Source: Prorocentrum cordatum
Lineage: Eukaryota; Sar; Dinophyceae; Prorocentrales; Prorocentraceae
Assembly (NCBI GenBank): GCA_963575745.1
Contig: CAUYUJ010011447.1
Coordinates: 897,501 to 961,500, forward strand
DNA length: 64,000 nt
Reading direction: 5' to 3'
Positions 3,070 to 52,361 of this stretch are shown here, one piece after another (position 1 is the first letter of the stretch; every line of letters starts with the position of its first letter). The notes under the pieces are model-generated. The model was not told where the DNA came from, ran no database searches, and was given only the letters and a program-made list of their open reading frames with translations. A program made the position numbers and the translations under genes.

Positions 3070-3257
3070 TCCCCACCAGCGTCCGTAGCCAGTCTGGCTC
3101 AAGCCGTCTCTGGGCCCCGGTCCCTCGGCCGGGTCTCCCAGCTCAAGGGGTTTCCCCTAGGAGTCTTTTTGCCGCGCGTCTCCCCCGGGGCCAGGCCGCC
3201 ATTGCAGACTCCCTGGATTCCTCGTCTACGGCTACGTGCGGGGCCCCGCGGCTTAGC
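3070..3257 (+). promoter_or_regulatory. 5' leader of copy A
   Basis: The 188-nt untranslated leader is conserved with 29536-29737 of copy B. It holds 12 bases (tccccaccagcg) before the spliced-leader relict. A second GCTCAAG lies further down, inside a sequence that could be an older, decayed spliced leader. The ORF1 ATG sits in the shared context gcttagcATGGATGGG. Any internal promoter must lie here or in the flank; I cannot identify one. Confidence 0.6.
3082..3103 (+). other. Degenerate dinoflagellate spliced-leader (DinoSL) relict
   Basis: These 22 bases match the dinoflagellate trans-spliced leader except at two positions in the middle (T to G and T to C). In copy B the same site matches exactly. 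No GT donor follows the final CAAG, so this is not an SL RNA gene. It is what remains when a trans-spliced mRNA is reverse transcribed back into the genome. Confidence 0.8.
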
Positions 3258-3683
3258 ATGGATGGGCGACCGATCGGCGAGGATCCTGCCATCCTGGTGG
3301 CAACGAGGACTGCGTCACCAGTCGTCGACCTTGGGGTCGATGGACTGACTGACTCAAGACACCCTCGCCCTGGATCTCAGGACACCATCCCGCCAGGACA
3401 GCCGTCGCCACCTGCTCCCTGGAGTGGGAATGCTTCGGCCGACGCCTCATGCGCACGAGAACCGTTGGCCTTCAGCCAATCGGAGGGAGGGGCTGAGGCT
3501 CTCAACCCTGCGATGCACACTGATATTGCGACCTTCAGTCGCTTCCCTGGACTTGAGAGCGGCAGGCACGTCGCGGTAGGAGGGGTTGATTCGTTCAGCC
3601 CCCCGATTCACACTGACATTGCGACCTTCAGTCGCTTCCCTGGATGTGATAATGGCAGGCATGATGCCCTCCCGCCTAGCTGA
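3258..3683 (+). CDS. ORF1 N-terminus, copy A
   Basis: The start MDGRPIGED aligns with MDGNPIDDG at 29738, in the same nucleotide context, which fixes the ATG. The 141-residue segment is Pro/Gly/Ser-rich and disordered-looking. It twice encodes HTDIATFSRFPG, whose DNA is the CTTCA hairpin plus CCCTGGA module. It ends at TGA 3681; copy B has a sense codon there and a related unit in copy A near 4450 has TTA, so the stop is a private nonsense mutation. The frame continues after it. No domain is recognised and function is unknown; by position it is the gag-like ORF of the element. Confidence 0.6.
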   Translation: MDGRPIGEDPAILVATRTASPVVDLGVDGLTDSRHPRPGSQDTIPPGQPSPPAPWSGNASADASCAREPLAFSQSEGGAEALNPAMHTDIATFSRFPGLESGRHVAVGGVDSFSPPIHTDIATFSRFPGCDNGRHDALPPS

Positions 3684-5155
3684 TCCCCCTCTCTCACCCC
3701 AACCCTTCCCATGCCCATTGCTGAGCGCCCATTCTCCTCTTCTCCAGGCGGTGCTGGGCATAGTGGGATCGCCCTCGGCGATGCCAGACTCACGGGGGGC
3801 GGAGGCCCCACTCCTGAAACAGCTAATCCCCCCGCGGCTTCTGGTCCTCGTAGGCAGTCGGACGAGGGGCAGAGGGGTGCCCTCGGCGTTCGATCCAGGG
3901 CCCCCTGTGACGTGGAGGGGGGAACTAGGGATCCGACACCCCCGATGGGGCGCTCGCGAGGGCGTCGGGGGGGGAGACGGGCAGACGCCTGCACTTGGCC
4001 CCGACATGGTTCACAGAGGCTTGCGCCCTCGCTCCGCCGAGCACCCCCTTCTTGATGCGACTGCGCCGAGTGAAGGAGCCTTCCGCCGCGAATTGAACAT
4101 AGAAGACGTGCCCTCAAACCCTGGAGCGCATTCCGATGCCGACGCAGTGCTCGGTCGCTTCCATGGACCTGAGAGCGGCAAGCAGGACACTGGAGAAGGG
4201 GGTGATGCATCCATCCCTGCGATACGCACAGATCGTGCGACCTTCAGTCGCTTCCCTGGATCGGATGACGGCTGGCAAAGGGGTGCCCGTGGCGTTCGAC
4301 CCAGGGAGCGTTGTGACGTGGAGGAGAGGACCAAGGATCTTGCTCCCGCAGGGGGTGGTCGCGAGCACGTCGGCAGTAGGCACACTGACGTTGCGACCTT
4401 CAGTCGCTTCCCTGGATGTGAGGACGGCACGCGCGACACCCTTCCGCCTAGCTTATCCCCCTCTCTCACTCGTTCCGCTCACATGCCCACTGCTGGGCGC
4501 CCAATTTCCTTCTCCCCAGGCGATGCTGGACAGATTGGGACTGCCCTCGGCGACACCAGGTGTACGGGGGGCGAGGACCCCACTCCTGTTCAAGCGCCCC
4601 CCCGCCCACGGGCCCAGGTCCTCGTGGGCAGACTGACGAGGGGCAGAGGGATGCCCTCGACGTTCGACCCAGGGGCCACTGCGACTTGGAGGGGGGGCCC
4701 AGGGAACTGACACCCCCAGGGGGCGCTCGCGAGGGGGTCGGCAGGAGAGACGGGCAGGCGCCCGACCTTAGTCCCGACTCGCTTCACAGAGGCTCGCGCC
4801 TACACTCCGCCGAGACCCCCCCTCATGGACGCGCCCGCGCCGAGTGAGGCAGCCGTCGGCTGCGAGTTGAACGCAGAAGATGCGCCTTCAGCCCTTGGAG
4901 CGCATTCCGACGCCGACGCAGCGCGCGGTCGCCTCCATGGATCTGAGAGCGGCAGGCGCGACACTGGAGGAGGGGGTGATGCATCCATCCCTGCGTTACA
5001 CGCGGATCTTGCGACCTTCAGTCGCTTCCCTGGATCGGATGACGGCAGGCAGAGGGAGGCCCACGGCGTTCGACCCAGGGAATTTTGGGACGTTGAAAAG
5101 AGGACCAGGGACCTGGCTCCCACAGGGGTTGGTCGGGAGGGCGTCGCCAGTATGC
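3610..5155 (+). repeat. Imperfect tandem duplication of about 773 bp in ORF1
   Basis: Bases from about 3610 recur at 4381 and begin again at 5156, giving two full units of about 771 and 775 bp plus the start of a third. Landmarks repeated at this offset are cacactgac before the hairpin, the segment with ctcgcgagggcgtc or ctcgcgagggggtc, and tggagcgcattccga. Copy B has one unit. The units differ at many positions, so the duplication is not recent. Confidence 0.7.
3684..4824 (+). pseudogene. ORF1 repeat region with frame changes, copy A
   Basis: The ORF1 frame continues after the 3681 stop to about 3970, changes frame at a run of eight G, goes on to about 4690, changes at another G run, and returns at 4825. 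The protein pieces repeat those on either side (SDADA..GRFHGPESG, RTDRATFSRFPG, HTDVATFSRFPG). This is the inside of the ~773-bp duplication. The changes at homopolymers may be real indels or assembly errors. Confidence 0.55.
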
Positions 5156-8100
5156 ACACTGACGTTGCGACCTTCAGTCGCTCCCCTGGAGGTGAGAGCG
5201 GCAGGCGCGCCACTGAAGGAGGGGGTGATGCGTTCATCCATGCGATTCACACAGATATTGCGACCTTCAGTCGCTTCCCTGGATCTGACGGCGAGACCAG
5301 CCTTCAGCAAGAAGGAAGAGAGCGAGAGCCGGGTAATCACGATGGTAGTGGTTGCAGGGAGGTGCCCTCCTCCACGGAGAGGATCGATCGCAACAGACCT
5401 TCCGTGGGGGTGGCGGCTGGACGGCCCATGGGACTTCCCCCCTCGCCCAACGCCTCCAGGATCGCTTCTGATCTTGCGCTCGGGGCCGCTCCTGTGGGTG
5501 ATCGGACCGGTCGATCTCCGATCGCTGCCGCGGGATCGCCCTGCGCCTTCCCTCCCTCGCCCACCAGCTCTTCTCCCGACTTCTCCCCTCCTGGCCCGCC
5601 TCCAGGGCTCGAGTGTCCTGATGGCCCGTTCGGCGGATGGCGCCGCGGCCTTGAGTTCTCGTCGCAAGGCAGAAAGCGGGGGCCCCTCCTTTGGACGGAC
5701 AGCGGCTCGCCTTTCGTGGTGAGCCGTGCGGCGCACGGGGGCCCTGTCCGCGTTGACCCCCCCTATTTCCCATCCCCAGACCTTGCCCTGGAAGAGGAGT
5801 TGCGGATGGAAAATCCGCCCACCCCCTCGGATGCTGAGGACCCCAGTCAAGCACTGAGGAACAGAGGGCAAGGCGCCACTGACCTCCACGCCCGGTGGTT
5901 GGACGCTACAGGGCACACGAATGCTGAGTGGGCGGCTAGCCGGGAGGCCGACGGACCCATATGTGGCCCGCGCGTGGCGGATGCCAGGATCACCGGCAGG
6001 GGGGGCACCATGAGTGCCCTCCGTCGGCACCTGGTACGCATTGGAGGTCCGTGGCGCGAGGTCCCCGACCGTGGAGCGCCGAGAACCCCGCGCGAGAACA
6101 GCAACCTGGAGCTTCTCATACACCATGCGTGGAGGGGGCACCGCCCAGGCCACCCAGGCATTCGAGCAGACAGCCCCATGCGGGCGGCCCCCGCAGAAGC
6201 CGCCCTCCCTGGACGCGGCTCGGAGCTAGCCACTTCAGCCCCGATCCTCGCCATCCTGGACCACTCCTGGCTTGTCTGGTCTGTCACTGGAGGAGACTAC
6301 GAAGGGCGTCTGGGAGGCGTACAACCTGACCCAATACAGGTCCTCGCCTGTCGCTTTGCGAGCATCACCCACGACCCCTGCATAAGAAGGGAGAGACTAG
6401 ACGCCGCCGACCCCTCAGTGACGGAGAGACAGTTGGCTCGTCTCGAATACGTTGCCATGGTCGCCGCGGCGCATTATTGCGACGTAGGCATGGAGCTCCC
6501 GAGCGGGTTCGACACAGATAGGATGCTCATGCCCACCAGATCTCCCGAAGACGTTGCCCCCCTGCACAGCAGTGGCCCGAACCGAACAGACGGGACGCAG
6601 GACCCCGCGGATGACGAGACCATGAGGTATGCGCGCAGAGTCCAAATTCACGAGCGCTGGCAAAACATAATCCACTTTGCAGACCATGGGGACGTCAGGC
6701 AGTGGGCCATCACGAGAGGGAACCTCGAACGGGTGGGGAACGACGTGCACTCGAGAAGACAAGCAGGGAGAAGCCCAGTACCATGGGCAGAGCCCGCCCT
6801 CTCGGGGATACCCGCCAGCTCAACGGGCATCCCTGGAGTACCCATTCAAGGAAGCGACGACAGCGACAACATGTGGCCATGGACCACTACAGCGCATAGG
6901 CTTCGGCTGCGGGACATTTTCTGCCCGACTGAGAGATGTGACTTCTGCGGCACTTCGATGCTTCGAGACCCAGCAGGGAGAAACTGCATCACCTGTCACA
7001 GGCTGGCCAACCCCTGGAGCTACAACCCTGGGGAGCCACGGGCAGATGACGCACCACCAAGACACCCAGGGTCAGGCCCGGGCCAACCACCCAACAGGCA
7101 TGCCCTCGACCTCCTGGTCACCGCTCTGCTGCTGCAGCTTGTCAGGGCGGGCATGCGGTATGCCCCGATCGCAGAGCATCTCTACTCCCCCACCCAGCCG
7201 GGCCCCTCCGACTTCACCCCGACCTGGCTCGTGGGCGAACTCCTAGGAGCCTGGAGACACATGGTGGCCCACGCCGCAAGCCTACCTGAAATCTGGGCCT
7301 ACGAAGAAGCAGGAGCCCTCGAGGAAGTCGGGAGCGACTGGCAGCTCCGCACAACAGCGATCTCGCTGGCCTTGCTCTGCTCGGCGCCAGGCTCCTGGGC
7401 CCTAAGCGTCTGCCAGAAAATGCGAAACGTCATCAGGACCAACCCCCAAGGGCGACTAGTTGGTTGGTTCCCTCAGCCTCTCTATCACGAGGGCCCAGAC
7501 GCGCACTCACCACCATACTGTAGGCCTCCCCTGTCCAGCAGGACAACCGCTACCGTCTCCATAGGGCCGAACACCGTGGTGCACCTGGATGATCTCTGCT
7601 GGCTAAGATACACCCTCGGCGGGGATCACCTTGATCGTGCTATAAGCGACGTACGAAACGTTGCGGACCTCAGTAGCCGCTGGTGGCACAACAGAGACAG
7701 CCTACACTCTCAGGCAGCAGAAGTAATGAGAGGCGCGCTACAAGCAGCCGCACGCACCGACTGGCGCCCAATACACCCCCAAATGGGACAGGGTACCCCC
7801 CTGGGCAACCTTGTCACAGATGCCGTCATCAGGCGACTGGATGCAGACAGTAGGGGTCAGGACCAAGGGCGCGCTGGGCGCCCCAGTGACGGGCACTCTC
7901 CCATGGATGTGGACAACCCTCGCAGCGGCAGGGAGAGCCACACGGGCTGGGAAGGGGTGGGAACGAGACCCCCCCAGGGACCCCCCCCCAGTTCCGGCGG
8001 AAGGGGCTTTCCCAAGCGGAGCGCTCCCAGCGAGAAGCATTCCTCGATGAGGCGCGGAGGATCAGGACGAGGGTTGCCAGCAACTCCGTCACCCCAGGCA

Positions 8101-8271
8101 TGCGGTGGAGCAGAATCTTGGCCCCCTTCATATGGGGCACCGCGACCGAGAGAGGACGGAGCGTGCTCGAGCAGGCCTTTACGAGCAGCAACATTGGCAC
8201 CACCATCATCGACCATGCAGCAGCCTGGTGGAGAGCACGGGGCGTCAGTTCGTACACAGATGCCCAGTTAG
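4825..8271 (+). CDS. ORF1 main part, copy A (low-complexity region and Cys cluster)
   Basis: The 1148-codon open segment is the continuation of ORF1; the ATG at 4825 is probably internal. Residues 1-150 repeat the HTDIATFSRFPG units and are followed by a long Pro/Arg/Gly-rich stretch. A conserved block shared with copy B begins near 6800 and contains CPTERCDFC followed by CITC, a likely four-Cys zinc site, then a helical region (LLLQLVRAGMRYAPIAEHLY, TWLVGELLGAWRHMVAHA). Similarity to copy B in this frame ends near 8000 at C runs, after which the coding frame moves by one base. In copy B the last Cys of the cluster is replaced by Gly. Function unknown; a nucleic-acid-binding ORF1 protein is the natural guess. 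Confidence 0.6.
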   Translation: MDAPAPSEAAVGCELNAEDAPSALGAHSDADAARGRLHGSESGRRDTGGGGDASIPALHADLATFSRFPGSDDGRQREAHGVRPREFWDVEKRTRDLAPTGVGREGVASMHTDVATFSRSPGGESGRRATEGGGDAFIHAIHTDIATFSRFPGSDGETSLQQEGREREPGNHDGSGCREVPSSTERIDRNRPSVGVAAGRPMGLPPSPNASRIASDLALGAAPVGDRTGRSPIAAAGSPCAFPPSPTSSSPDFSPPGPPPGLECPDGPFGGWRRGLEFSSQGRKRGPLLWTDSGSPFVVSRAAHGGPVRVDPPYFPSPDLALEEELRMENPPTPSDAEDPSQALRNRGQGATDLHARWLDATGHTNAEWAASREADGPICGPRVADARITGRGGTMSALRRHLVRIGGPWREVPDRGAPRTPRENSNLELLIHHAWRGHRPGHPGIRADSPMRAAPAEAALPGRGSELATSAPILAILDHSWLVWSVTGGDYEGRLGGVQPDPIQVLACRFASITHDPCIRRERLDAADPSVTERQLARLEYVAMVAAAHYCDVGMELPSGFDTDRMLMPTRSPEDVAPLHSSGPNRTDGTQDPADDETMRYARRVQIHERWQNIIHFADHGDVRQWAITRGNLERVGNDVHSRRQAGRSPVPWAEPALSGIPASSTGIPGVPIQGSDDSDNMWPWTTTAHRLRLRDIFCPTERCDFCGTSMLRDPAGRNCITCHRLANPWSYNPGEPRADDAPPRHPGSGPGQPPNRHALDLLVTALLLQLVRAGMRYAPIAEHLYSPTQPGPSDFTPTWLVGELLGAWRHMVAHAASLPEIWAYEEAGALEEVGSDWQLRTTAISLALLCSAPGSWALSVCQKMRNVIRTNPQGRLVGWFPQPLYHEGPDAHSPPYCRPPLSSRTTATVSIGPNTVVHLDDLCWLRYTLGGDHLDRAISDVRNVADLSSRWWHNRDSLHSQAAEVMRGALQAAARTDWRPIHPQMGQGTPLGNLVTDAVIRRLDADSRGQDQGRAGRPSDGHSPMDVDNPRSGRESHTGWEGVGTRPPQGPPPSSGGRGFPKRSAPSEKHSSMRRGGSGRGLPATPSPQACGGAESWPPSYGAPRPREDGACSSRPLRAATLAPPSSTMQQPGGEHGASVRTQMPS

Positions 8272-8660
8272 TACTTGCGGCTGAAACAGACATATCGTCC
8301 AGGACAGAAGGTGCCACGTTCGAGGCCCCCGAAGTGGGCGGCTACATCGCACCCCTGCTCCAGGAACGGATGATGCTGCACCTGGATGCAAATGGCTTCC
8401 TCCAGTCTGCCATCCTGACAGGAGATCGGCGGGCAGTAGAGGCTGGAGCGAGGGTGAGAGCGCAGCTTGTCAGTACAGAACCGAGGCCAAACCCAAGGAG
8501 TCACGGGCCCACGTTCGAAGGCAGGACTCGCCCTGGAGCGGAGGCCGAGACTGTGGAAGCCTCAAGCACAACCACGCCCTGGCACGCGGACATACGACAG
8601 ATGCTCAATCGGGCAGGCTTCGCTACTCCCCAGGGCGGACTACCACCTGGCAGTACCAGA
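8006..8660 (+). pseudogene. ORF1 helical segment in a shifted frame, copy A
   Basis: In this frame the protein reads LSQAERSQREAFLDEARRIR, then SNSVTPGMRWSRILAPFIWG and on to the ADIRQMLNRAGF region. Copy B reads the same from about 32660. The segment is predicted helical and without motifs. It links the Cys-cluster part with the RING part, so the ancestral ORF1 was one chain. The frame is left again near 8655, where copy A differs from copy B by an indel. Confidence 0.5.
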
Positions 8661-10155
8661 AGGGCTCCTGGACAGACTCATCCGCACTCTTGATGCCAGA
8701 CAACGGGACGAGGAGGGGGCGGGCAGAGGGACCATGCCGGCCCCGGAAGGAAGGACCTCCGTCAACGGGGATCAGGCGCAGTGCCTGGCACAGAGCATGC
8801 TCCTGGAGCACAGGGTAGATCGACAACCAGGTCCCTGGATCTCTAGAGCCCTATGGCTCTGCCTGGCACCGCACTACTTCCCCCTCCTCAGACCAGTGCT
8901 GACTGTGCGGGCAGTGGACTCCCGACCCTACGACGTTCTCTACCGCTGGATGACCAGGAACGAGATACATACGCCGGAGGACGTGGTGTCCTGTCTCCGT
9001 AGGGAGTTCCCTGAGGCCGATCTATCCCCATATTCCGATCTCACCAACGTACACATCCAAACCCTCATATGCCATCTCAGTGAGGGGGCTAATCTGACTC
9101 ACCTCGACGCTAGTGTGTCCGCCAGAGCCCTCATTGAGAGCTTGGGGGACGGCCTTTCCCAACTCAGCCACCCCCCTGGAGACAACGCCAGACTTCCACC
9201 GGAAAGCATGGGCGCCGTGGACGTTCCTCCTTGGGACCTGGACATAGGTACTCCCCTATGCATGATCTGCAGCGAAAACATCTTAGGCTTCGCGGAGGTC
9301 CTGATGTCTTGCGGCCACCTGTTCCACGCCGAATGCCTGAGACAGTGGAGGGTTAGCCAGCCCGCGCAGGCCCACTCCCACGGAAGATGCTTCCCAGTAA
9401 ACTGTCCGAGTTGCCGCTCTAACGATAGGGGTAGCGTCACCGCAAGGTTGCCAGGGCTAGTCCGAGACGCCGACGCTGCAGAAGTGGCGGTACCACCAGA
9501 CCTCCTGCAGCTTCGCGATGGGACCTTACCCCCGCTGCAGCCATTCTTGAGCCTGCAGGAGTTAGCCGAGGCAGTCAGACACTTGGCCCCAGACCTGGAC
9601 TGCCTCAGAGCGCAAGCGCTCTCCATCCGACGGCCCCACACATACGTCACGCTTTCGGACATGCGCAGAATCCACGTGCACGTCACCGAGAGGAGAGCCG
9701 CTCAGGAGGCACGCCAGGCCCCGATGGAGGCGGACGCAACCCCACCTGACGGTGGAAGCGGTGGAAGCGGCATGGACCCCGATGACACTCACGGCAGCTC
9801 GCAGAGCCCTGGGACCCTGCCTCCACAGCGACCCCTCGGTCCCACCAAAAGGGCGGATAGGATCCGGCAAGCCCCGCGGATCACTTTTCTGCTGGGACGG
9901 ACCCCCCCAGAGGACGAACCCAGGAAGAGAGGGCCCGGGCGGTTCCCGGTGGGGCTGCTAACCACGGCCGTCCGAGACATCGCAGCCGACCTGGTAATTT
10001 CCAGAAGCACGTACGTCGGCGAACGAGTAGCTGATGAGACTGGGGTCACTTTCGCCCTTGCAGGCCCAGACGCCTGGGAGCAGATCAAAGCAAGTGGTCT
10101 TGGAGCGCAGGAACCAGCCTCAGGGGAGCGCCGCCCCAACGATCCTCGTGGTTGA
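8467..10155 (+). CDS. ORF1 C-terminal part with RING-H2 finger, copy A
   Basis: The coding match to copy B starts near 8655. The RING finger is at 9259-9414: C-x2-C, then CGH-x2-H-x2-C, then a final C-x2-C, the order of a RING-H2 domain. RING proteins usually recruit E2 enzymes as ubiquitin ligases; that activity is inferred from the family. After the RING comes a helical stretch (LLQLRDG, LSLQELAEAVRHLAPDLDCL) and a basic Pro-rich tail. The segment ends at TGA 10153-10155, which overlaps the start of the ORF2 frame (GTG at 10148, ATG in copy B). Copy B lacks this stop, so the ORF1 end is not certain. Outside the RING I recognise nothing. Confidence 0.65.
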   Translation: MSVQNRGQTQGVTGPRSKAGLALERRPRLWKPQAQPRPGTRTYDRCSIGQASLLPRADYHLAVPEGLLDRLIRTLDARQRDEEGAGRGTMPAPEGRTSVNGDQAQCLAQSMLLEHRVDRQPGPWISRALWLCLAPHYFPLLRPVLTVRAVDSRPYDVLYRWMTRNEIHTPEDVVSCLRREFPEADLSPYSDLTNVHIQTLICHLSEGANLTHLDASVSARALIESLGDGLSQLSHPPGDNARLPPESMGAVDVPPWDLDIGTPLCMICSENILGFAEVLMSCGHLFHAECLRQWRVSQPAQAHSHGRCFPVNCPSCRSNDRGSVTARLPGLVRDADAAEVAVPPDLLQLRDGTLPPLQPFLSLQELAEAVRHLAPDLDCLRAQALSIRRPHTYVTLSDMRRIHVHVTERRAAQEARQAPMEADATPPDGGSGGSGMDPDDTHGSSQSPGTLPPQRPLGPTKRADRIRQAPRITFLLGRTPPEDEPRKRGPGRFPVGLLTTAVRDIAADLVISRSTYVGERVADETGVTFALAGPDAWEQIKASGLGAQEPASGERRPNDPRG

Positions 10156-12154
10156 TGCTCTAGCTCGCAGATGGATGCCGCCCTGGCGGCAGCTTCTGCT
10201 GCGGGTAGCCCAGGGAGTGCCATCCCCTGGAGGACCGGATCCGGTCGAACTCACGGCCCTGGCAAACGCGCAGTGGGGGTACCGAGCGGCCAGCAAAATT
10301 ACCCACCTCGTCCCGATCGGTCACCCCTACCGAACTGGCAAGCCCAGCCCACCAATGCAACCGCTCTTTGCCGCTCAATTTGACTTAGCGGGCAGGACAC
10401 TGCGCACGATCCTGCCCCCGTCAATAGTCGTGCACTGGGGAGGGAGGAGCGGGGGCACCTCTGACGCACTGCACATCCGAACCCCTGAGAGCGGCAACGA
10501 CGGTGTCGTCGCGCAGATCATGAGTTGGAAGGAAGAGCTAACACGATCCCACAACGGCACGATCGCAGCCGACTGGGTCACCACGAGGGTGCAACTCCCC
10601 CGGGATGAGCTACTAGGATACCAGGGACTCGAGATGCTCTTCCATAACGTTCTTCGCCGCAGAGCAGCGAGACCTGTGAGCGGAGGAGTCGGCATACGTT
10701 TCCCCCTGGATAACCTGCAGGCGGCGGCTCAAATCACCACGCTGGCCCACCAGACGGCTTGCGTCTGGAGAACCCACGAGACGAGCGATTCAGTGCACAT
10801 CCCAGTCCCCCCCAGGGCGATCTGCATAGCCCACTCCGTCGCCTCCGCAACAGCCGGAGCTATGGGACACAGAGTGGGAATTTGCGGGACGGGGCTCCTT
10901 CTGATCTCCACTCCAGAAAAGATTGCCGCCCCCGTCTTGAGACACCTCCGGGACGAGTTTCCACGTGTCTTCGGAGACGGTTCCTCCTCCACGGCGCTAG
11001 GACCGCGCCGCATCCTTCTGGAAGGACCCTGGGATGGTGGACCCTCGTTCGTTCGCCTTTCCGACCCCGAGGATGGTTCCCACTTCCGGTGGAACCTCGC
11101 GGACATGGGACAAACACGGCCGGCGGATGTCTTGCAAGCCGTAGAGGCCACCACCGGCCCTGGCACGGTCGAGCAGGTTTCCACTGTGTACGCCTGGTTC
11201 CCAGACATCTCTGACTACAGGTACATGATGCAGGTCCGCATTCGCCTGGCAGCGGCCGACGCCATGGCGGCAGCCTTTGTGGGCACCAATTGTATAGTGA
11301 TCGGAGCCCAGACCGTCAGGATCTTCCCTGCGACGCCTAGCAGGGACCCCATGCACAGAGCAGCCGCTGCACCCAGGGAGCTACAGGATCATGTGGACGC
11401 GCTGGCCAGTATCTCGGTACGGCAAGCCCCCAGACGCGCTGTTCAACCCCAAGTCCTCGAAATCACCACTTTCGACAGGCACGGGACGCAGCTAGGAGAA
11501 GTTCGCCCCCGCAGCATGCGCCCTGACGCGTGGCTCCCTGGACACAACACGTTACGGCTCTTCTCTGCCTCGGTCGGCTCGGCAAATGCGCAGATACTAA
11601 CCCGACTCTGGCCACTCCCGGACGGCCCGGACGGCACCTCGCACCCAGCCAACACCAGAGCTGCCCCACCTATCATTACAAGGGATTGGCTCCGGGATAA
11701 CGCTGGGGCGATGAGCAGGAGTGCGCCCAACGCGGTACCTAGCGTGTCTCAGGAGAGTGGCCTAAGGGACTACGAGACTGTCCTACAACCTGGAGACTAC
11801 CTGCGTGCTGCAATAGCGGCTAGTGGAGCCGTCGAGGTTACCACGAGCGGCGAAGCTGGTTTCCTCTTCACTTCGGCCCCCACCTGGGTGACTGTACTCC
11901 TCCCCGCGGACGCGGACATTAGGGCAGCCACGAGAGGTGCGGACAGACCACAAGCCAGACTCAAACTGCAACTCGCCGCGGGCCCCATTCACGTGTCGCG
12001 CCTGGACTCCGCCCCTGCAGCCACGCCAACCCCCGCCTCCGTGGGGCTGCGGGTCAACGCTCCTTCCCAACAACCACTGCCTAGGCGCACCTCTGCATCC
12101 CTCAACCCACTCCCGGGACCCGCCAGGCCCACACACTTTCCGGAACTGGCCTAG
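10148..12154 (+). CDS. ORF2, unassigned protein, copy A
   Basis: The frame is taken from the codon equivalent to ATG 34808 of copy B; here it is GTG. A short frame slip lies between about 10160 and 10216, after which the match is continuous from VPSPGGPDPVEL. About 600 residues are conserved with copy B. The stretch VEQVSTVYAWFPDISDYRYM to TVRIFPA has a beta-alpha-beta look that could be an RRM-like fold, but this is a weak guess. The segment stops at TAG 12152 where copy B has GAG, and the frame continues to about 12364 before a one-base insertion. Function unknown. Confidence 0.55.
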   Translation: MVDALARRWMPPWRQLLLRVAQGVPSPGGPDPVELTALANAQWGYRAASKITHLVPIGHPYRTGKPSPPMQPLFAAQFDLAGRTLRTILPPSIVVHWGGRSGGTSDALHIRTPESGNDGVVAQIMSWKEELTRSHNGTIAADWVTTRVQLPRDELLGYQGLEMLFHNVLRRRAARPVSGGVGIRFPLDNLQAAAQITTLAHQTACVWRTHETSDSVHIPVPPRAICIAHSVASATAGAMGHRVGICGTGLLLISTPEKIAAPVLRHLRDEFPRVFGDGSSSTALGPRRILLEGPWDGGPSFVRLSDPEDGSHFRWNLADMGQTRPADVLQAVEATTGPGTVEQVSTVYAWFPDISDYRYMMQVRIRLAAADAMAAAFVGTNCIVIGAQTVRIFPATPSRDPMHRAAAAPRELQDHVDALASISVRQAPRRAVQPQVLEITTFDRHGTQLGEVRPRSMRPDAWLPGHNTLRLFSASVGSANAQILTRLWPLPDGPDGTSHPANTRAAPPIITRDWLRDNAGAMSRSAPNAVPSVSQESGLRDYETVLQPGDYLRAAIAASGAVEVTTSGEAGFLFTSAPTWVTVLLPADADIRAATRGADRPQARLKLQLAAGPIHVSRLDSAPAATPTPASVGLRVNAPSQQPLPRRTSASLNPLPGPARPTHFPELA

Positions 12155-12365
12155 GGGCTAGTGAGTGCATGTAGGCCGTCCCCGACAGGGCTGGTGAGAG
12201 CCGATGAAGATGCAGTACGCATCGCTCGTGGTATGTTGGGTAGAGTCGCCGCCGTGGTCCCAGAGCAAGCGGTCCACGACATGGCGCGCGGTTTCCAGCG
12301 CCGGATCGCCCTCGAAATCCGCAGGCAACTAGAAGGCCGGCCCATACAAAGGTACAACTGGGGAT

Positions 12366-24237: not shown

Positions 24238-24239
24238 TC

Positions 24240-42855: not shown

Positions 42856-42915
42856 TACGCCGCTGACCTGAATCCAGATCTTATAGACCTGGTCCTGGGC
42901 CCTTCCATTGATCTG

Positions 42916-43188
42916 TTGGTCTGGATCGGCAAAAAGGCGACTGCTGAGTTGCCCAGCGACATGCGACCCTTACAACTCCCCACCTGCCTACGGAGACTGC
43001 ACGGTGCGACCATTGCCGACCAGCTTGGCCCCGTGATCGAACCCAGACTCAGCCCTCATCAAGCGGCCAAGCGAGGGGGACAGTGCGGCCCAAACATCAC
43101 ATCTGCCACTAACCACCTTGCCCTGGACCCGGTGCCCGACACCGAACCCGGGCCATCGTGGACAGCCCTGCTGGGCGAGCACCAATAG
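42916..43188 (+). CDS. ORF3: RT blocks after the first stop, copy B
   Basis: Same frame after TAG 42853. Encodes the blocks SDMRPLQLPTCLRRLHGATI and QCGPNITSATNHLAL of the reverse transcriptase. Ends at TAG 43186; copy A reads through at this site. The frame re-opens directly in the next entry. Confidence 0.65.
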   Translation: MVWIGKKATAELPSDMRPLQLPTCLRRLHGATIADQLGPVIEPRLSPHQAAKRGGQCGPNITSATNHLALDPVPDTEPGPSWTALLGEHQ

Positions 43189-43191
43189 GCC

Positions 43192-44607: not shown

Positions 44608-45504
44608 TTCACCGCAACCAGCGACGAGCGCAGATGGGCGCAGACAGATGGCGCGGAATGGTCTCTCCTGGGACACTGTGCATCCTTTACCGAGGCACAC
44701 CACGTCCTCCGGCATCTGGCCAAGGGGCTACCCGGTTCTGCGCGACGGCGAAGCGTGGCAGACAGGATCCCCCACCAGTGCAGCTGCGGCAGACCTGCCA
44801 AGAGAGTTTGGCTCACAGCCGGCCAGCGAGACGACGGACAGGCCTGGTGTGACGCCTGCCTTAGGTCCTGGAGCGGTGAGGCCGTCCTCTGGCCTCTCCT
44901 AGACGACGACGCCCCCCCCGAAGACCTGCGCGCACTTGCTGCCGAGCGAAGAAGGCACCATGCTAGCATTAGCGTCTCCATGCGGCAAGGACTCTACGGA
45001 GCCTGTCCACTCTGTGGCCTTGGAGAGGCCACAACCGAGCACGTGTGGTGCTGGTGCCCCGCGGCTGCCCTTGCCTGGGAAAAATCCAAAGCCCCGGACC
45101 GTCCCAGGGACCTGGCCACGGCGATGTGCACTAGGGGACTACACCAGAGGCTAGTCTGCCGACTGTTGCACCAACTCTCCTTCAGGTACTGTGTGAACTT
45201 GGACTGCACCCCCATTGGCGCTGACGAAGCCGCCAGACTCATTGTCCAGGGTATCGCTGTCCCCGACTCCGACCTCCAGGACGACGACGAAGCTGACGAT
45301 GACCTGCATGAAGGGCAGCCTCCCGTCGCCCCGGCAGACGAAACCGCAGTCTGGGCCCCTATGCTCGACCTCTGTCAGCTGCGCCACCCAAGGGCCGCAC
45401 TTACGGCGCATCCGCGGTGCCGCCGGACCACATCTTGGCAGACAAGCACCACGCGCCGGAGGGGAAATCCGGCGCCCCCCTATCACCACGAGAGCCACGC
45501 GTAG
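44608..45504 (+). CDS. ORF3: zinc knuckle region, copy B
   Basis: Same frame after TGA 44605; the first Met is at 44755, but coding similarity runs through from 44608. A C-x-C-x3..C-rich stretch (CSCGRPAKRVW) and the motif CPLCGLGEATTEHVWCWCPA are shared with copy A and resemble the zinc finger found after the RT in LINEs. Conserved sequence leaves the frame near 45370; the rest is out of frame. Confidence 0.65.
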   Translation, partial: FTATSDERRWAQTDGAEWSLLGHCASFTEAHHVLRHLAKGLPGSARRRSVADRIPHQCSCGRPAKRVWLTAGQRDDGQAWCDACLRSWSGEAVLWPLLDDDAPPEDLRALAAERRRHHASISVSMRQGLYGACPLCGLGEATTEHVWCWCPAAALAWEKSKAPDRPRDLATAMCTRGLHQRLVCRLLHQLSFRYCVNLDCTPIGADEAARLIVQGIAVPDSDLQDDDEADDDLHEGQPPVAPADETAVWAPMLDLCQLRHPRAALTAHPRCRRTTSWQTSTTRRRGNPAPPYHHESHA

Positions 45505-46144
45505 TGGTGACAGGCTAGCAGTCCTCCAAGCCGGTGACCCCAGAGCGGGCTGGATGCCCCCTGGGCGGGGCTGGTTCCCATGCCCCAGGACAGACAGGGA
45601 CCCCAGCGCCCTCTGGACCAAAGCGTATTGCAAACTCTGTGACCAACACACCCTCGTGCTCAGAGCCGGCAGGGACATGGGCGTTGGCGAAGAAATCACA
45701 GTCAGAGACTCCCCGCTCCCTGCCGCCGACTCTGCCCAATGGCCCTGCGAGCTTGCGTTCGACGGGGGGGCACGCCGAATCGGAGAAGGGGACAAGGTCT
45801 CGGGTGCGGCGGCGGTTCTTTGGAGGCATGACCCACGCCGCGGCTACCCGCGCGTCGCAGCGGTCGCTGCGGTGGCCCTCCCAGGCTGCGACGCGCACAG
45901 ACGGCCGAGGCCTCTGGGTGCAGAGCTGGCCTCGCCCTGCTCCCTCACGTTGAAGACACGCTCCGTGGCGCCAATGTGGTTGGCGAGAACCTGGCTGCCA
46001 TCCGATACGGGGCCGGCACTGGACGCTATCGGCGGCTCCATCTGGCACAACAAATGGACTTTGCCCTCAGGCAAGCCAGTGAGTCGGGATGGGCCCTCAC
46101 ATGGCAGGCGGTGCGACGTCGGCTCAACACACGGCACTAATTAG
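45215..46144 (+). CDS. ORF3: RNase H, frame-shifted, copy B
   Basis: From about 45370 the frame encodes the linker and the start of RNase H (LAFDGGARRIGEGDKVSG, first catalytic Asp). One base is missing near 45892 relative to copy A (gacgcgcac versus gacaacgcac), so the Glu and the later Asp residues are coded in the next frame, followed by a decayed end. Copy A has the full RNase H set. RNase H would remove element RNA from the RNA-DNA hybrid. Confidence 0.6.
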   Translation: MALTKPPDSLSRVSLSPTPTSRTTTKLTMTCMKGSLPSPRQTKPQSGPLCSTSVSCATQGPHLRRIRGAAGPHLGRQAPRAGGEIRRPPITTRATRSGDRLAVLQAGDPRAGWMPPGRGWFPCPRTDRDPSALWTKAYCKLCDQHTLVLRAGRDMGVGEEITVRDSPLPAADSAQWPCELAFDGGARRIGEGDKVSGAAAVLWRHDPRRGYPRVAAVAAVALPGCDAHRRPRPLGAELASPCSLTLKTRSVAPMWLARTWLPSDTGPALDAIGGSIWHNKWTLPSGKPVSRDGPSHGRRCDVGSTHGTN

Positions 46145-46417
46145 GGTTTTTTTGGGGCCAGCGCCCTCAGACACGCCGGTGATCATGCGGTCACCACCTG
46201 GGTCGTGTGGGAAGACACCCATCGCTCCCCTCCTCCTCTTCCCCGCCGCCGGAGTCGACATCTGCAGCTTGAACAAGGTCGCCCTGTTCGTAAACGCTCT
46301 CGAAAACCCCCCTCCTCCTCATCCCCCCTGATCGTGCCCGGTCCGACACACTAAGGCCACGACAGCCCGCAGCCTTCAGCTGCCTCCCTGGGTTACGACT
46401 GGACGCTCCCTGGGACC
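46145..46417 (+). other. ORF3 end and ORF3/ORF4 spacer with CTTCA hairpin, copy B
   Basis: The decayed ORF3 end (GVDICSLNKVAL, ALENPP) stops near 46330. A hairpin with stem GCAGC/GCTGC and loop CTTCA lies at 46369-46383, followed two bases later by CCCTGGG. The spacer of copy A has two such hairpins, so the number of units varies between copies while the position is kept. Confidence 0.6.
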
Positions 46418-47080
46418 ATGCCCAAGAACAAACAAGGCCCCACCCGACGTTGGCCCTCGTGCCTGCCGCACTGTGAGGACGGACAGCCATTCCGATTGGG
46501 CACGCGCGTTTTCCTTGCTCGGTTCTGTCCCTGGATGCGTTGGGTTTTCTTCAACGGCGGGCGGCGCCACTGGTGCGAGATCTGCCAGGGGCCCGTGGAT
46601 GACACTCAGCACATCCTAAGCGACAAGCACTACGAAATGTCGCAAAAGCGCTACAGCGACGGGTGGCCTGACCCAAACACCTTTGTCACCCCTGGGAATC
46701 TGTGGAGCATGTGCAGTGGATCGACCTGGGACTCAAATCACCGTGTGCATATCGAGCGAAGGCCCTGGCCAGGCTGGAGGCCCGTCCAACCCTTGGTATC
46801 CCAAGACGGTGTACGCTCACGCCCTGGTCTCGTGATTCCGGAAGACGCGCTGCACGTGCCCACCACCTACCCTCTCTGGGACGACGAACCGACGTACAAC
46901 TGCCCTGGAGGCACCAGATCCGACCCAGAGCACGCGAGGTCGCACCTGATGGACACACGAGAGGCCAGGCGGACGGGCGTCAGACAGCCCGACGTTGGCG
47001 GAAGGGGCCAACGCGCTAGCAAAATCGTCCGTCGGATCACTGCCTGCCACCTGGGCAACCCGCAGCCTCGAATGGACCTT
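46418..47080 (+). CDS. ORF4 N-terminus with zinc-finger-like motif, copy B
   Basis: The start is MPKNKQGPTRRWPSCLP. The zinc-finger-like block is WCEICQGPVDDTQHILSDKH, that is C-x2-C-x9-H-x5-H, intact here but damaged in copy A. It is followed by conserved GWPDPNTFVTPGNLW and DALHVPTTYPLWDD. The open frame goes on to 47143, but conserved coding moves to the next frame near 47080 in the proline-rich stretch. Confidence 0.6.
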
Positions 47081-50000
47081 TGCCTCCGCCCCCGCCGCCC
47101 CACCCTCCGCCCGCCTGGGACCAGCCCAGCCAGCAGCGAATAGTGATGCTGGCAAAGGAAGAAGATACATCACTAGCAGGCCCGTCGGAACAGCAGCTGG
47201 ACGATTCGTTGGCACTCCAAGCGGCCGCCGACGCACTTAGTCTCTACTCTGTGCCCCTGGACTCTCCGCACTCCCGAGTCCACCCCAAGGCGGCGCTAGG
47301 GGACCTGCCCGAGGCCGTGCGGCTCCCCTCGCAGTGGCCTTACTCCCTCCAGGATCGTGGACAGACACTTCGGAGGATTGCCTGGGTAGAAAGCCAAGCG
47401 TCTGTCGAGACGGTGGACAACAGAAAAGACTCCACACTCGAAGACCTGGCCAGGAAAGGCAACTGCGCGCTCGGCGTCCGTGTCACCAGGATCGACGCCA
47501 ACTCGGACTTGGGCGACCTGGACACCTTCCGGCTACGCAACGCGCTGGAGATTCCAGAGGGTAATGAACTCTACCTACTGGAGTGGCCCTCTAAGTACAA
47601 AGTGACATCCAGGACCCAGGAGGGAGACAAGGAAGGCAAAGAACTGCACATTTCTGTCACCGGCCCCACAGTCGACAAAATTGCTGACGCCACGATCTGG
47701 TGGCCCCCCTCCCTGGGCGGTGCCATTCACCCAAGAGACGCCCAAGTGCTCGGCCTCAGCCCGTCCACCAGGTACCCGTCCGACAGATGCATAGTGCTGT
47801 ACAACAGTGGAAAGTGGGGGCCATTCCATGAAGACGAGACCAAGGCGAAACGCCCCCCAAACGACGAGGTTCCCTGGTACCGAGTGGACGAGGCCCCCTC
47901 CGACATCCAGTTCTGGCGCCAGTGTTGGGCTCTCGACCAGATCTACTACCTCCGGCAGAATGCCGCGGATCTGTTCGCCCGCACGCTGTCTCCCCTGACG
48001 TTCCTCTTAGCCCTCTTGCACGCCCCCCGGGCCGACCGACTTGCGGCCAACGACCTGCGGCGTACCAGCACAGTGGGCTCGAACCTGAGGGTCAGGGCCG
48101 CCGTCACCCTGGACTGCGACGTCCCCGACGCTGACCTCACTCAGGCTGTCCGATGCGGCCTTCTGCCGCAGGTACCGCCGCTTCCCCTGGGTTTGAAGGC
48201 TTTCTCCGACGATGAGATCTCGGACGCGACGGGGTCGGTCTTCCAGAGGGTGCGCCCCGCACCCAGTCTGGCGACCTTCCGCGACAGGGTGGACAAACAA
48301 AAGCCACACAACGACGCGATCAAGGCCCTTCAGGCCACCTTGTATCACCACGCCGTACTGGTGCACGGGCCCCCCGGGACAGGCAAGACCACCTTTTCCG
48401 TCGCATGCCTGGACATGTGGGGATGCTGCCTACGTCCGGGACAAGCAGTCGCGTTGGCAGCCGGTTCGAACACGGCGGTAGACCAGCCAGCCCTGGCAAT
48501 GTCCGAAGCGCATCAGCAACGTCGTCTCGATCCCGACACGGGGTTCCCTGGGAAATTCGTGCGCCTGGCAAGGAAGGAGCGTGTCAACGAGGGACTCGTG
48601 GACCTGACACCAGAGGGCCACTACAATAACGCCCACGGGGAGTTCCCGTTCCAGGACGGGGACAAGAGCCAGGACTTCAAGCCCTACAAGGCTAGCCTGC
48701 TTCGAGATGCCAGGGTGATCATGTCCACACACGAGGCGGCCGGAGCCCTCGGACCGAAAGACAGTCCTAACATTGTCCTCCTGGAAATCGATGAAGCTGG
48801 GCAGGCCACGGAGCTTCATGCGCTCATGTCTATGGTGAACTTGATCAACAGCGGCGGAGCCCTGGTACTGGTGGGCGAAGATACGGCTGTGGTCCACCTG
48901 TCGATCTGCTACCGCATGCATCCGCAGCTACTCGCCTTTCCGAACGCAGCCTACTACGGCAAGGGTATGACGACTGGCATCCTGGACCCGCTCAGGGACA
49001 GGCCCATCGTTGAAGGCATCCCATGGAGAGACATCACACCCTGGGAACCCGGGCGACTGACTGAACTGGCCAACCTCACCGGCTCCGACGAGGCCGACCT
49101 TCGCGCGACCCTCAAGCAGTTGGATCCTCAGCAAGACGGAGACAAGCACCGTTTCCTGCTGGTCGACACACCCTCATGGGAAGTAACGTATAGCCTCCAG
49201 CCAGGCTACGCCAACCTCCCCGAGGCAGCGCAGGCCGTGGACATCGCGCGGGCACTCCTGCCCGAGCTCGAAAAAGGCACCACCTTCAGAATCGTCGTCG
49301 GCTACCAGCTCCAGACGGCCATCCTCACGGACGGCTGGCCTCAAGGCCCCCGCCACCTCTGCGGTGTCCTGCGGAATTCAAAGGGTGGCAAGAAGGGGAA
49401 GTCAGGAAAGGGAACAGGCAGTGTTGTTCGCGACGGACAAGACATCCCTGGCCCTGGAGCTGACCCCCAAGGGCACGTGGTGGACGATCACCGATGGGAA
49501 ACCGTCTTGCGGGAGGACCACAACGCCCACACAGCCATCGGCGCTGCCTTCCCCGGACTCAGGCAGGTTGCGGGAAAGCACATGAAGAGTGGGGCTCTCA
49601 AACTTACCACCATCGACTCCAGCCAGGGTGGTGAGGCAGACATCGTAATCGTACTGACCACCAGGAGCAACGGGAAGCACAATTCGGGCTTTGTCGACGA
49701 CGCCAAACGCCTGAACGTGGCAATCACTAGGGCCAAGCGGAGTATCCTGATGTTGGGAGACGGGCGCATGTTCGCCAATGCCACCTGGTCCCAGCTGCGT
49801 GTGCTCTCGGAGTACGGGCGCTTGACCCGCCTCTGGGTCCGATTCGGGGGCGGCGCACCTGCTGGCCACAGGAGATCCCTGGTCATAGACGAGAGCTTTG
49901 ACCCACTGCCCGACCTCGCCACCTGGGTACCGTCCCCCGTCGCCTGGAGCTGCGACGCAAAGGGGGAGGACGGGCGAAATGAGCTTGATGCGGCCAAAAA

Positions 50001-51165
50001 GAAAGCCCGCGACGCCCAGGCGAGCGGCTTCGCAGAGCGCTACAACACTCCACTGGCCGAGGACTTCGACTGGGACTCCCTGGGTAAGCTAATCTCGGCC
50101 GGCCTCAACGAGATCCTCTCGACGCCTGCCTTCCACGTGCTCATCTATGTGGTGGCGGGGCTACACCCGCACGAGTTCTCGCTGGCAGAAACACCGCGAC
50201 AACCTGGCAGACTCGACCGCAAGGCTTGGTCGCACCTGGGCTTCCTGTTCGACATGTCCCTGGGTCTAGACGCGACCAATCTTGTCTACAGCATGCTCTG
50301 GGCAGCCATTGTGTGGACGCTCGGCCTTGGCACTCCCTGGGATGACGCAAACCGCGCAGTGCACGACGACTCCCTCCCTCCGGTGCCGCACGTCAAAGGA
50401 CGACGTGTAACGCTCTGTGGTCGGCGCCAGTGCACCCCCAAGGGACTCTTCCGGCAGGTTCCCCAGGCGTGGAGTGCAGCAACCAAGGATTGCTGCAGAC
50501 ACAGGAAGCACCCTGGAATGGCCGGCCTACAGGAGATTCTCAGCGGCGCCCCCGACGACCCAAAGTGGGACCAGTTCCGGAAGGAACTTAAAGACACAGA
50601 TGGCCTCCCCATGGAATCCTGCAAGACCCGGTGGCTCTTGGTCGTCATGATGTCAATGCTCCGCGAGCCGCGCGTGTTCTTGTGGCCTTTCCCCCACGCA
50701 GAGCAGGCTGGGGATGTGATCGAAGCCATCCTGGGTTTCTGTGTCCCATGGCAAGAAGCGCACCGAGGAATTCGGCACGACTTCGCAAGAACCTGGGGAC
50801 TCACGCTGGACGATCTGGCCGACCTCCACGGTCGCATCGAGGCAATCCTGCCCCACATCTCCAAGCTCGTAGCGGTGGCGCACCACCACCCGGACGCGCA
50901 GGCAGCCGGCTGCCCGCAGACCTGGAGTGAAATGGACAGGCAGGACTTTCAGATGAAGGCGCCGATGCTTGTCCTCGAGAAGATCGTCCCAGCCGCCTCC
51001 CTGGCCCCCCTGGGCACGCACCGCTGCTCGGTGTGCGCGCTTCACGTCGCGCTCGCGGGCTCTGACGCCTCCCTGGGTGACGACGATCGGTGTGCTGGGC
51101 TCGCCTACATCGGCGGCGGATTCGCGCTATCCAACACCGACCTGGACGCCCCCTTGCCGTCCACC
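47080..51165 (+). CDS. ORF4: UPF1-like SF1 helicase, copy B, motif III missing
   Basis: The longest continuous helicase frame in the window (open to 51603, conserved to about 51165). In order: SQWPYSLQDRGQTLRRIAWV; GPPGTGKTTF (motif I, 48367); AGSNTAVDQPAL; EIDEAGQATE (motif II); LSICYRMHPQLLA; TIDSSQGGEADIVIV (motif V); RLNVAITRAKRSILMLGD (motif VI). Between ALVLVGE and VVHLSICY about 33 codons are absent, including DPNQLPP of motif III, so ATP hydrolysis coupling would probably fail. UPF1-like enzymes act on RNA or DNA 5' to 3'. The C-terminal domain matches copy A. Placement after the RT ORF suggests a helper in copying or exporting the long RNA, but that is inference. Confidence 0.78.
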
Positions 51166-51712
51166 AGGCACCAAGCAGGACCCTCCACACATTCCCGACG
51201 ACAGGCTGACAGCCGAACAGAAGAACGGCAGGTTCGAGTGCGACAGGCGCGGCAAGGACCAGCTACGCTCCACAGAAGGCACGTGGATATCCGACGACAC
51301 ACGCCTGATGGTAGCACAGAACCGGCCCCAGGCCTACCTCGACGGTGCGAACATGGGATGGCACTGCGAGATCTGCTGGATCCGACACCTGGAGGACCAG
51401 GGCATCCCAGCTCCAACCGGTGCGACAGTTGCGGACAAGGTCAAGGAACACGAGCAGCAGAGGATCGGTGCCGCAAACGACAAAAAGGCGGGTGCCCTCC
51501 CGTCCCTGGGTCACCTCCCACTTGGCTTTGGATGCAGCCCCCAGGCGGACGCGAGATCGCTGTCGGACCTCATCATGACGCCGACGGGCATGCAGATCCC
51601 TGAGCGCGCCAACACCACCATTCCCATCCTACGGGTCAGAGATGAGCGGTTCGGCCTCAAAGCTGCGGAGAACAAATTCTACTCCGCACGGTGTGACACA
51701 TGCCCCCCCAGG
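51165..51712 (+). CDS. ORF4 C-terminal domain, first part, copy B
   Basis: Read in the frame of the open segment 50969-51931, this continues the copy A domain: PHIPDDRLTAEQKNGRFECD, GWHCEICWIRHLEDQG, ALPSLGHLPLGFGCSP, and RVRDERFGLKAAE up to CDTC. It follows a small indel near 51165 relative to copy A. At 51712 both copies step to the +1 frame. Confidence 0.6.
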
Positions 51713-52361
51713 GGCACCGCTCCTCGTCTGGAACACCGGAGCACCTCCCCTGGGCTGCTTCCTATGGAAGCCAGCGGAGGGGGTAGGGGTTCCCGAGCAA
51801 GCTGGGCTGCCTCCCATCGAGCGGCGAGCCATAGCCTGGTGGGAGCGCAACTGGAACGCCACTTGGTGCTGCCGACGCTGCCTGGCCCCAGTATGGAACA
51901 TCGGTCCTGCAACCCTGGGCCACATCCTTGACAGAGACTACAGGGCGCTGTACCCAGCCGAGGCCCCTGTCCTCCCAACGCTCAACAGCCAGATAGTAGC
52001 GGAGGTGCCAGTGGACATTTTCAGTTCTCTTCCATGGATAGGCGCTGACGCCAAGGCCCAAGGCGCTGACGCCAAGGCCTTCGCCAAGGCAGGAGCGGCA
52101 AACCTCCCTGGGTCTAGCGCCTCGGGTGGAGCGGCCCCCGCGGCCGAGCAAGCCCGCAGGACTCCTGCACAGCCCATGGAACTCCTGCCAGAGCTGCCAG
52201 TCCCGCAGTGGCCGCTCCTGGACAGCAGGGACGTCAACAACCCCACGCTGAGCTCAGACGACCCCAGGAGCGGATCGGCCAATGGAGACGCGGCTGTTCA
52301 GCGACTCCTGGTAACCTACCTCCGGGACTTCCACCCTGGACTGGACTACACTTGGCGACAG
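51712..52361 (+). CDS. ORF4 C-terminal domain, truncated end, copy B
   Basis: Read in the frame of the open segment 51642-52517: PLLVWNTGAPPLGCFLWKP, NWNATWCCRRCLAPVWN, VDIFSSLPWIG, then a short duplication (ADAKAQGADAKAF), and FHPGLDYTWRQ. Similarity to copy A ends at 52361; the codons after it are flanking sequence. Confidence 0.6.

Follow-up and report, generated by a model that had tools for sequence, protein, structure and literature searches.

Two copies of a very long unit lie head to tail in a 64,000-nucleotide stretch of Prorocentrum cordatum DNA (contig CAUYUJ010011447.1, positions 897,501 to 961,500 of the forward strand; this whole stretch is called the window below), and the question raised by this locus is whether the unit is a single mobile element, a duplicated set of host genes or a chance row of neighbours. 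Long interspersed nuclear elements (LINEs) normally measure 4-8 kb and carry one or two open reading frames (ORFs). We consider it probable that the unit is a giant APE-type LINE, 26.45 kb from a dinoflagellate spliced leader (DinoSL) to an A-tail, with about four ORFs and with a host spliced-leader, polyadenylated transcript as its genomic RNA. This explanation is preferred because the sequence has a DinoSL edge, a short flanking duplication, an A-run, the enzymes of a LINE and purifying selection throughout almost everything that can be compared between the copies.

Two collinear copies and their common history

The pair was found by a BLASTN comparison of the window with itself. Copy A (3082-29534) extends from the DinoSL to the A-run and has both ends. 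Copy B starts at 29548, matches A throughout the main blocks and breaks off at 52361; the last 2.6 kb including the 3' end are missing. The aligned blocks are A 3069-3422 with B 29535-29908 (74.6% identity), A 6790-15003 with B 31448-39666 (75.8%), A 15008-23369 with B 40565-48878 (78.0%) and A 23479-26911 with B 48889-52362 (77.7%). Between the blocks, the portions of ORF1 are 68-69% alike or cannot be aligned. The main blocks thus differ by 22-25%, chiefly at third codon positions. The collinearity of A and B is far beyond chance. A first-pass annotation made from the letters alone had proposed two collinear copies with a common leader and order, one of them with both ends, and the self-comparison bears this out, the copy with both ends being A. 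Its starting point at 3070 has to be shifted, as the element proper begins at the DinoSL (3082 and 29548), after a 13-bp repeat (3069-3081 and 29535-29547); its size of about 26 kb holds. The same domains had also been claimed for both copies. Their order is indeed shared, but the middle of the methyltransferase is missing from A owing to a deletion of about 900 bp at about 15004, and about 100 bp of A are absent from the helicase region of B.

Between 6.8 and 26.9 kb, almost all 300-base intervals have their mismatches between A and B gathered mainly at a single codon position, a pattern that is weak near 12.7-13.4 kb. Nonsynonymous (dN) and synonymous (dS) divergence were obtained from a frame segmentation of A against B, in which about 6,400 codons were compared. 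Positions 3847-6520 of A could not be aligned and so lie outside this comparison. For segments of at least 50 codons between 6.5 and 26.9 kb, dS was 0.55-1.09 and dN/dS 0.06-0.26, the exception being a low-complexity stretch near 12.7-13.1 kb (dN/dS 0.53); pieces shorter than 50 codons gave dN/dS values of 0.09-0.45. The similar dS across the unit indicates that its parts diverged together, and the low dN/dS indicates descent of the copies from lineages in which these proteins were required. Within the limits of a comparison of two copies, the unit evolved as one element and not as chance neighbours.

A chance assembly of neighbours was the scenario that the first-pass annotation had set against its own reading, and the similar dS together with purifying selection across the unit contradicts it. 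The many distinct domains in the sequence would suit a chance row of neighbouring genes with nested insertions. Yet the same order with the same 5' ends occurs twice, and P0003, a relative encoded on another contig, covers nearly the whole of ORF4 as one protein. Given the collinear self-match and the pattern of dS and dN, we rejected this explanation, which is scarcely credible.

Downstream of 52361 nothing matched the 3' part of A past the first few codons, save weak scattered tblastx pieces in repeat-rich sequence, and the flank 52362-64000 has many short tandem repeats, e.g. of CCTCCT, CGGCGA and AGGAGG units. Nine ORFs outside the element (eight of them in 52362-64000) and one ORF1 piece matched no Pfam family at E up to 0.01. 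No Rfam family matched the window at gathering thresholds. Five scans of viral contigs and one of genome contigs gave no confirmed relative. The self-BLAST matches listed include no terminal repeat of at least 60 bp, which fits a LINE without long terminal repeats.

The ends of the element

The features that delimit the two copies are the following (UTR, untranslated region):

3069..3081, + strand: 13-bp ATCCCCACCAGCG, identical to 29535-29547; probably the left half of a target-site duplication round A
3082..3103, + strand: DNA-encoded DinoSL, 5' end of copy A, two mismatches
3104..3257, + strand: 5' leader (5'UTR) of copy A
28323..29526, + strand: 3'UTR of copy A, closing with a predicted stem-loop at 29500-29523
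29527..29534, + strand: A-run of eight A (poly(A) tail) of copy A
29535..29547, + strand: right copy of the ATCCCCACCAGCG duplication, directly after the A-run of A; also the 5' flank of copy B
29548..29569, + strand: DinoSL, exact over 22 nt, 5' end of copy B

The DinoSL was located with a search pattern that agrees with the sequence given in PMC6050394; it matched B without and A with two mismatches, at a mean expectation of 0.00. ATCCCCACCAGCG is present in the window at the two listed places only. When 499 random pairs of 40-bp stretches of the window were compared, none shared at least 13 consecutive bases, the largest number being 9. The simplest reading of this arrangement is that ATCCCCACCAGCG is probably a target-site duplication round A, so that duplication, leader, 26.45 kb, A-tail and duplication follow one another.

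Alternatively, the 13-mer could belong to the element itself. The start of the RNA would then lie 13 nt before the leader, and the head-to-tail pair would be the product of a single event, RT template jumping or recombination, rather than of two insertions at one site; this bears on the tandem only and is compatible with a LINE. The same 13-mer stands before both leaders, a duplication exactly at the 5' edge of B demands a site-specific enzyme, and B has no 3' flank that could show a third copy of the duplication. However, the 13-mer lies directly outside the DinoSL, which is described as an addition at the 5' terminus of mRNAs (PMC6050394), and it is identical at 13 of 13 positions against 74.6% identity over the entire leader block, although short stretches of the leader are identical too. 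We regard this alternative as unlikely, though not far-fetched.

For the giant LINE, the following cycle can be envisaged. The genomic RNA would come from host transcription, would be capped with the host spliced leader and would be polyadenylated. The ORF3 protein would nick the target and copy the RNA by target-primed reverse transcription to its very 5' end, so that each new copy would carry the leader in its DNA. The encoded leader, which ends in AG, could act as acceptor for a fresh leader, and the 5' end would be restored with every round, the element needing no promoter of its own and accumulating no leader relics. The head-to-tail pair would result from two insertions at one site with a 13-bp stagger. 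When ordinary dinoflagellate retrogenes are re-transcribed, a 15-nt leader relic is left behind the new leader (PMC12014239). Our search for relics with at most 3 mismatches returned near the elements only the two leaders themselves and no second relic beside either. From this we infer that a new leader is joined to the 3' end of the old one (…CAAG), or else that transcription begins at this point.

The ORFs and their proteins

The ORFs were assigned by frame segmentation as follows:

3258..10155, + strand: ORF1 of A, broken by indels and a duplication of about 770 bp; its ATG is at the same place in both copies
10034..15400, + strand: ORF2 of A, end approximate; conserved region of about 700 aa, low-complexity basic region, DNA methyltransferase (DNMT)-like domain with its middle deleted
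15398..20761, + strand: ORF3 of A, start approximate; APE endonuclease, reverse transcriptase (RT), CCHC motif at 19456, RNase H
20762..20891, + strand: ORF3/ORF4 junction of A; pyrimidine-rich tract, ACACTAAGG in common with B, two CUUCA-loop hairpins, two CCCTGG motifs
20892..28322, + strand: ORF4 of A, broken; C2H2-like zinc finger, UPF1/SMUBP2-like SF1 helicase, long C-terminal tail, stop TGA at 28320
29738..34810, + strand: ORF1 of B, broken, end approximate
34697..41176, + strand: ORF2 of B, broken, end approximate; DNMT-like domain at about 39580-40740
40953..46354, + strand: ORF3 of B, both ends approximate; APE endonuclease, RT, CCHC motif at 45004, RNase H
46418..52361, + strand: ORF4 of B, cut at 52361; zinc finger, UPF1-like helicase

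The ancestral plan appears to have comprised about four very long sense ORFs (five, should a junction near 13.1-13.4 kb prove genuine), with starts at 3258/29738 (the ATG of ORF1), about 10034/34697, about 15.4 kb and 20892/46418. The tally of at least five ORFs in the first-pass annotation includes decayed pieces; the codon-level comparison and two unbroken relatives encoded on other contigs, P0001 on one of 21.3 kb and P0003 on one of 15.6 kb, support about four. The exact extent of ORF1 and ORF2 is less sure than that of ORF3 and ORF4, because there is no unbroken relative of either. The scored frames contain four in-frame stops in A and five in B; one of those in A, at 15373, may be the regular terminator of ORF2. 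Frame changes confined to a single copy, which number nine in A and ten in B if the ORF3/ORF4 junction is not counted, are due to decay or sequencing indels. Five changes of frame are common to the two copies: at 10.15 kb in the ORF1/ORF2 overlap, at about 13.1 kb in the low-complexity junction, at 15.0 kb in the region of the 900-bp deletion, at 20.6-20.8 kb at the ORF3/ORF4 junction, and at 26268 (A)/51704 (B) inside ORF4.

ORF3 carries the enzymes of a LINE. P0001 (1735 aa, unbroken) matches A 15613-20737 (42% over 94% of the 1015-aa query) and has an APE-like endonuclease upstream of the RT within one ORF. The Pfam family Exo_endo_phos_2 was matched in B at 4.1e-7, above its cut-off, and the APE motifs WNVR, QETH, GGDVN and SDHA are present in copy A and in P0001. 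RVT_1 was matched at 1.2e-8 in a further relative, P0002, above the curated cut-off of Pfam, and below it in B (0.0019) and P0001 (3.7e-6); RVT_3 in A (2.6e-4) was likewise below its curated cut-off. The CCHC motif follows the RT in A, in B and at residue 1290 of P0001. P0001 found nothing among the PDB sequences at E up to 1. Judged by endonuclease, RT, CCHC motif, tail and duplication, the element classifies as an APE-type LINE; activity is not claimed for A or B. As a side observation, CTTAGGG, which resembles the +1 shift heptamer of yeast Ty1, stands at 20605-20611, near the frame change of ORF3 of A relative to P0001, and once more in the window (58168); right beside this place, B lacks 13 bases of A.

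ORF4 contains a helicase. AAA_12 (6.9e-26) and AAA_11 (1.4e-14) were matched in B, and both families were also matched in ORF4 of A; the C2H2-like finger was recognised by its motif. P0003 (2541 aa, unbroken; 50% identity over 87%) matches A 20892-28316 in pieces, residues 2120-2347 excepted, and starts with the ATG of ORF4 and ends one codon before the ORF4 stop of copy A. The best PDB sequence matches of the helicase, all over a short stretch only, are UPF1, SEN1 and SMUBP-2, and the best model match of P0003 is the IGHMBP2 family, below the cut-off of that model. The UPF1-like helicase may aid the RT through 26 kb of structured, G+C-rich RNA, or may protect a multi-ORF RNA from decay. The shared +1 frame change inside ORF4 lies near a C run, with coding constraint on both sides, and P0003 reads straight through it; it is a programmed frameshift, a split ORF or a systematic sequencing indel. 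At the ORF3/ORF4 junction, both copies have pyrimidine-rich tracts and ACACTAAGG. We suggest that this junction could serve as an internal acceptor; downstream ORFs may be released by internal trans-splicing.

Assignments are less firm in the first half of the element. In ORF1 of A, a RING-H2 finger was found at 9256-9417 (Pfam 1.5e-6, above its cut-off); the RING of B, at about 33916-34068, was recognised in the translation only. The duplication in ORF1 of A (3609-4439/4381-5213, offset by about 770 bp) is 81.5% identical in the self-comparison, and further, shorter internal repeats occur near 3609-5213. The conserved region of about 700 aa of ORF2 (A 10031-12151) has no match in Pfam, NCBIfam or PHROG, and dN/dS is 0.06-0.10 over 10.19-12.66 kb of this ORF. 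The DNMT-like part of copy B likewise found nothing in Pfam, NCBIfam or PDB sequence searches, PF00145 being unmatched even at E up to 10. It matched only two PHROG families, both named 'DNA methyltransferase' (E 0.0037 and 0.039), and with tblastn three of four matched phage records were annotated as cytosine methylases, weakly and all with E of at least 0.1. C5-methyltransferase-like motifs, which we take to be I, IV, VI and VIII, follow in this order at 39601, 39892, 40039 and 40153 of B. Hence ORF2 probably encodes a C5-methyltransferase, as the weakest of the domain calls. Structure predictions of the first 706 aa of ORF2 and of the DNMT fragment had mean pLDDT (predicted local distance difference test) values of 28.9 and 31.8 and were not used. 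The RING and DNMT proteins may act on the host. The description of a giant LINE-like element with RING protein, DNA methyltransferase, UPF1-like helicase, endonuclease, RT and RNase H in the first-pass annotation is therefore supported by domain matches, least so for the methyltransferase.

The DNMT-like ORF, by its position and motifs, fits the layout of SymbioLINE-Dnmt (de Mendoza et al. 2018, PMC5890265), a dinoflagellate LINE in which a DNMT ORF precedes the ORF for endonuclease, RT and RNase H and which has target-site duplications, conserved UTRs and purifying selection on DNMT and RT. The element described here might be a full-length member of that family, a reading that overlaps with the giant LINE preferred by us. 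It differs, however, in its 26.45 kb, in the additional RING ORF1 and helicase ORF4, in its DinoSL 5' end and in the A-run at its 3' end. Moreover, the word 'helicase' is absent from the main text of that paper, and its authors searched with PF00145, the profile that misses the DNMT of our element. Membership in this family is thus conceivable, though on balance we doubt it.

Several observations weigh against the giant LINE as outlined. Copies A and B are both broken now, and A is the only complete copy in the window. The first 150 scored codons of ORF1 have a higher dN/dS of 0.38 (dS 0.58). SymbioLINE-Dnmt is reported to be without poly-A (PMC5890265), unlike copy A with its 8-A run at 29527-29534. 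P0001 and P0003 are not known to sit together, and for the first 707 aa of ORF2 there was no relative among 7,995 homologue candidates scored; the linkage of ORF1-ORF2 to ORF3-ORF4 is therefore carried by A and B by themselves. Finally, RT motif C reads YVGD in both A (17980) and B (43531), so that the YxDD site is incomplete; alignment shows YVDD at this place in P0001 and P0002. YVGD is inactive by standard RT chemistry. Nevertheless, the RT region of A and B has a dN/dS of about 0.11. With YVGD in both copies and the frame change shared by them in ORF4, the lineage of A and B may rely on RT supplied from another source.

These shared defects also bear on another explanation, an in-place tandem gene array in which one old retro-insertion was duplicated, retained by the host and became immobile. 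Head-to-tail tandem genes are common in dinoflagellates. Strong purifying selection acts on both copies, and both the YVGD, with a synonymous change of its Gly codon (GGT in A, GGC in B), and the +1 frame change at 26268/51704 are shared. Against such an array speak the stops and frame changes in both copies, the boundary made of A-run, duplication and leader with no spacer, and the unbroken relatives on other contigs. An immobile array is accordingly quite improbable, and we retain the giant LINE.

Dispersed motifs, known systems and implications

With protein and codon usage fixed (200 permutations), CCCTGG is among the most over-represented hexamers in either copy; the top-ranking hexamer is CCTGGA in A (74 against a mean of 22.5 and a maximum of 38 in the 200 permutations) and CCCTGG in B (70 against a mean of 22.6 and a maximum of 35). 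CCCTGG is found in each of the three codon frames and also in the UTRs; the 3'UTR of A has it ten times in sense and never in antisense. It is rarer in the flanks, with 0.60 per kb in the right flank compared with 3.4, and 1.6 per kb in the left flank (3 kb only). B keeps CCCTGG at 38 of 76 sites of A, the fraction for all hexamers being 0.196. The base that follows differs between the copies: CCCTGGA and CCCTGGG occur 62 and 13 times in A, 17 and 34 times in B, and where both copies keep the hexamer, A in A stands opposite G in B nine times and the reverse twice, a small sample. The motif may be a tag for identity or packaging of the RNA; the excess could also stem from a host-wide coding preference. 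CCGG is depleted and CTGG enriched. We do not regard CpG deamination as sufficient by itself to explain the CCCTGG excess, since differences between A and B at CCGG sites are balanced (TG:CA 25:24) and the null model itself imposes part of the CCGG deficit.

A hairpin upstream of every CCCTGG was rejected as a general rule: when 90 sites in A and 77 in B were folded and compared with 200 random sites per copy, the local differences were slight and largest at the GG of the motif itself. A distinct set of hairpins with a CUUCA loop was nevertheless observed, at the following places among others:

copy A, + strand: CUUCA hairpins at 3465, 3528, 20820 and 28885
copy B, + strand: CUUCA hairpins at 30506, 30850, 31305, 42126 and 46369

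With a 5-bp stem there are eleven in A and six in B in sense and none in antisense; eight of the eleven in A lie in 3466-5273, where ORF1 contains repeats. A single hairpin, with a 4-bp stem, is found in the right flank. The stems differ in sequence yet pair, and several hairpins have CCCTGG within a few bases downstream. Of the 20 hairpins with 4-bp stems, eleven were aligned, namely four of the eleven in A and seven of the eight in B but not the one in the right flank; in nine of the aligned eleven the fifth stem pair is formed, the only pair free of selection for four perfect pairs. A speculative interpretation, which we hold to be rather doubtful, is that of a LINE that leaves its 5' end to the spliced-leader machinery, with the leader renewed each round and no promoter needed, and whose 26-kb RNA is tagged by dispersed sense CCCUGG followed by A or G and read by its own proteins. 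The last base of such a tag might then have shifted between subfamilies, to A in that of copy A and G in that of copy B, each subfamily recognising its own RNA.

Several known systems share single properties with the giant LINE. Insect R1/TRAS and Jockey LINEs have acquired an SF1 RNA helicase (PMC6338049, PMC5563155, PMC4686597); theirs is tobamovirus-like and located at the C-terminus of ORF2 (PMC6338049), whereas the helicase found here is UPF1/SMUBP2/SEN1-like and has its own ORF of about 2.5 kaa. Terminons, giant multi-ORF Penelope-like elements of rotifers, reach 40 kb and form head-to-tail arrays, but have a Penelope-like RT, no endonuclease, and ends with hammerhead ribozymes and telomeric repeats (PMC6431247); our element is of the LINE type with an APE endonuclease and a target duplication, and the Rfam search noted above returned nothing. 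The L1Tc/ingi LINEs of trypanosomatids also live in a spliced-leader host, but share a 5' Pr77 promoter and give unspliced transcripts (PMC4748587, PMC8190864), whereas here the leader itself forms the 5' edge. Dinoflagellate retrogenes with DinoSL relics have the spliced leader written into DNA through reverse transcription of mRNA as well, but these are host genes (PMC6050394, PMC12014239); the unit described here is a retroelement that encodes its own RT and bears a single complete leader without a tandem relic.

The first-pass annotation knew of no described LINE with this set of genes. A DNMT in a dinoflagellate LINE (PMC5890265) and a helicase in a LINE (PMC6338049) had already been published. 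Among the matches listed for the open-access literature (titles and abstract openings, with subscription papers and preprints outside), there was no LINE of this size or gene set and none with a spliced-leader 5' end. Thus the size and the gene combination appear to be new.

A 26-kb LINE under purifying selection would be a sign that very long RNAs are within reach of target-primed reverse transcription, and it would make it possible to ask what a LINE gains from a helicase, a RING protein and a methyltransferase. Through the DinoSL at the 5' edge of the insertion, the biology of LINEs becomes linked with spliced-leader trans-splicing, which suggests one way in which such an element could retain its 5' end and promoter and in which a single RNA could serve for the expression of many ORFs. 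For the leader-tagged retrogenes of dinoflagellates, the source of the RT has been called unknown, with Ty1/copia elements favoured (PMC6050394). Elements such as the one described here are candidates for the RT that produced these thousands of retrogenes.

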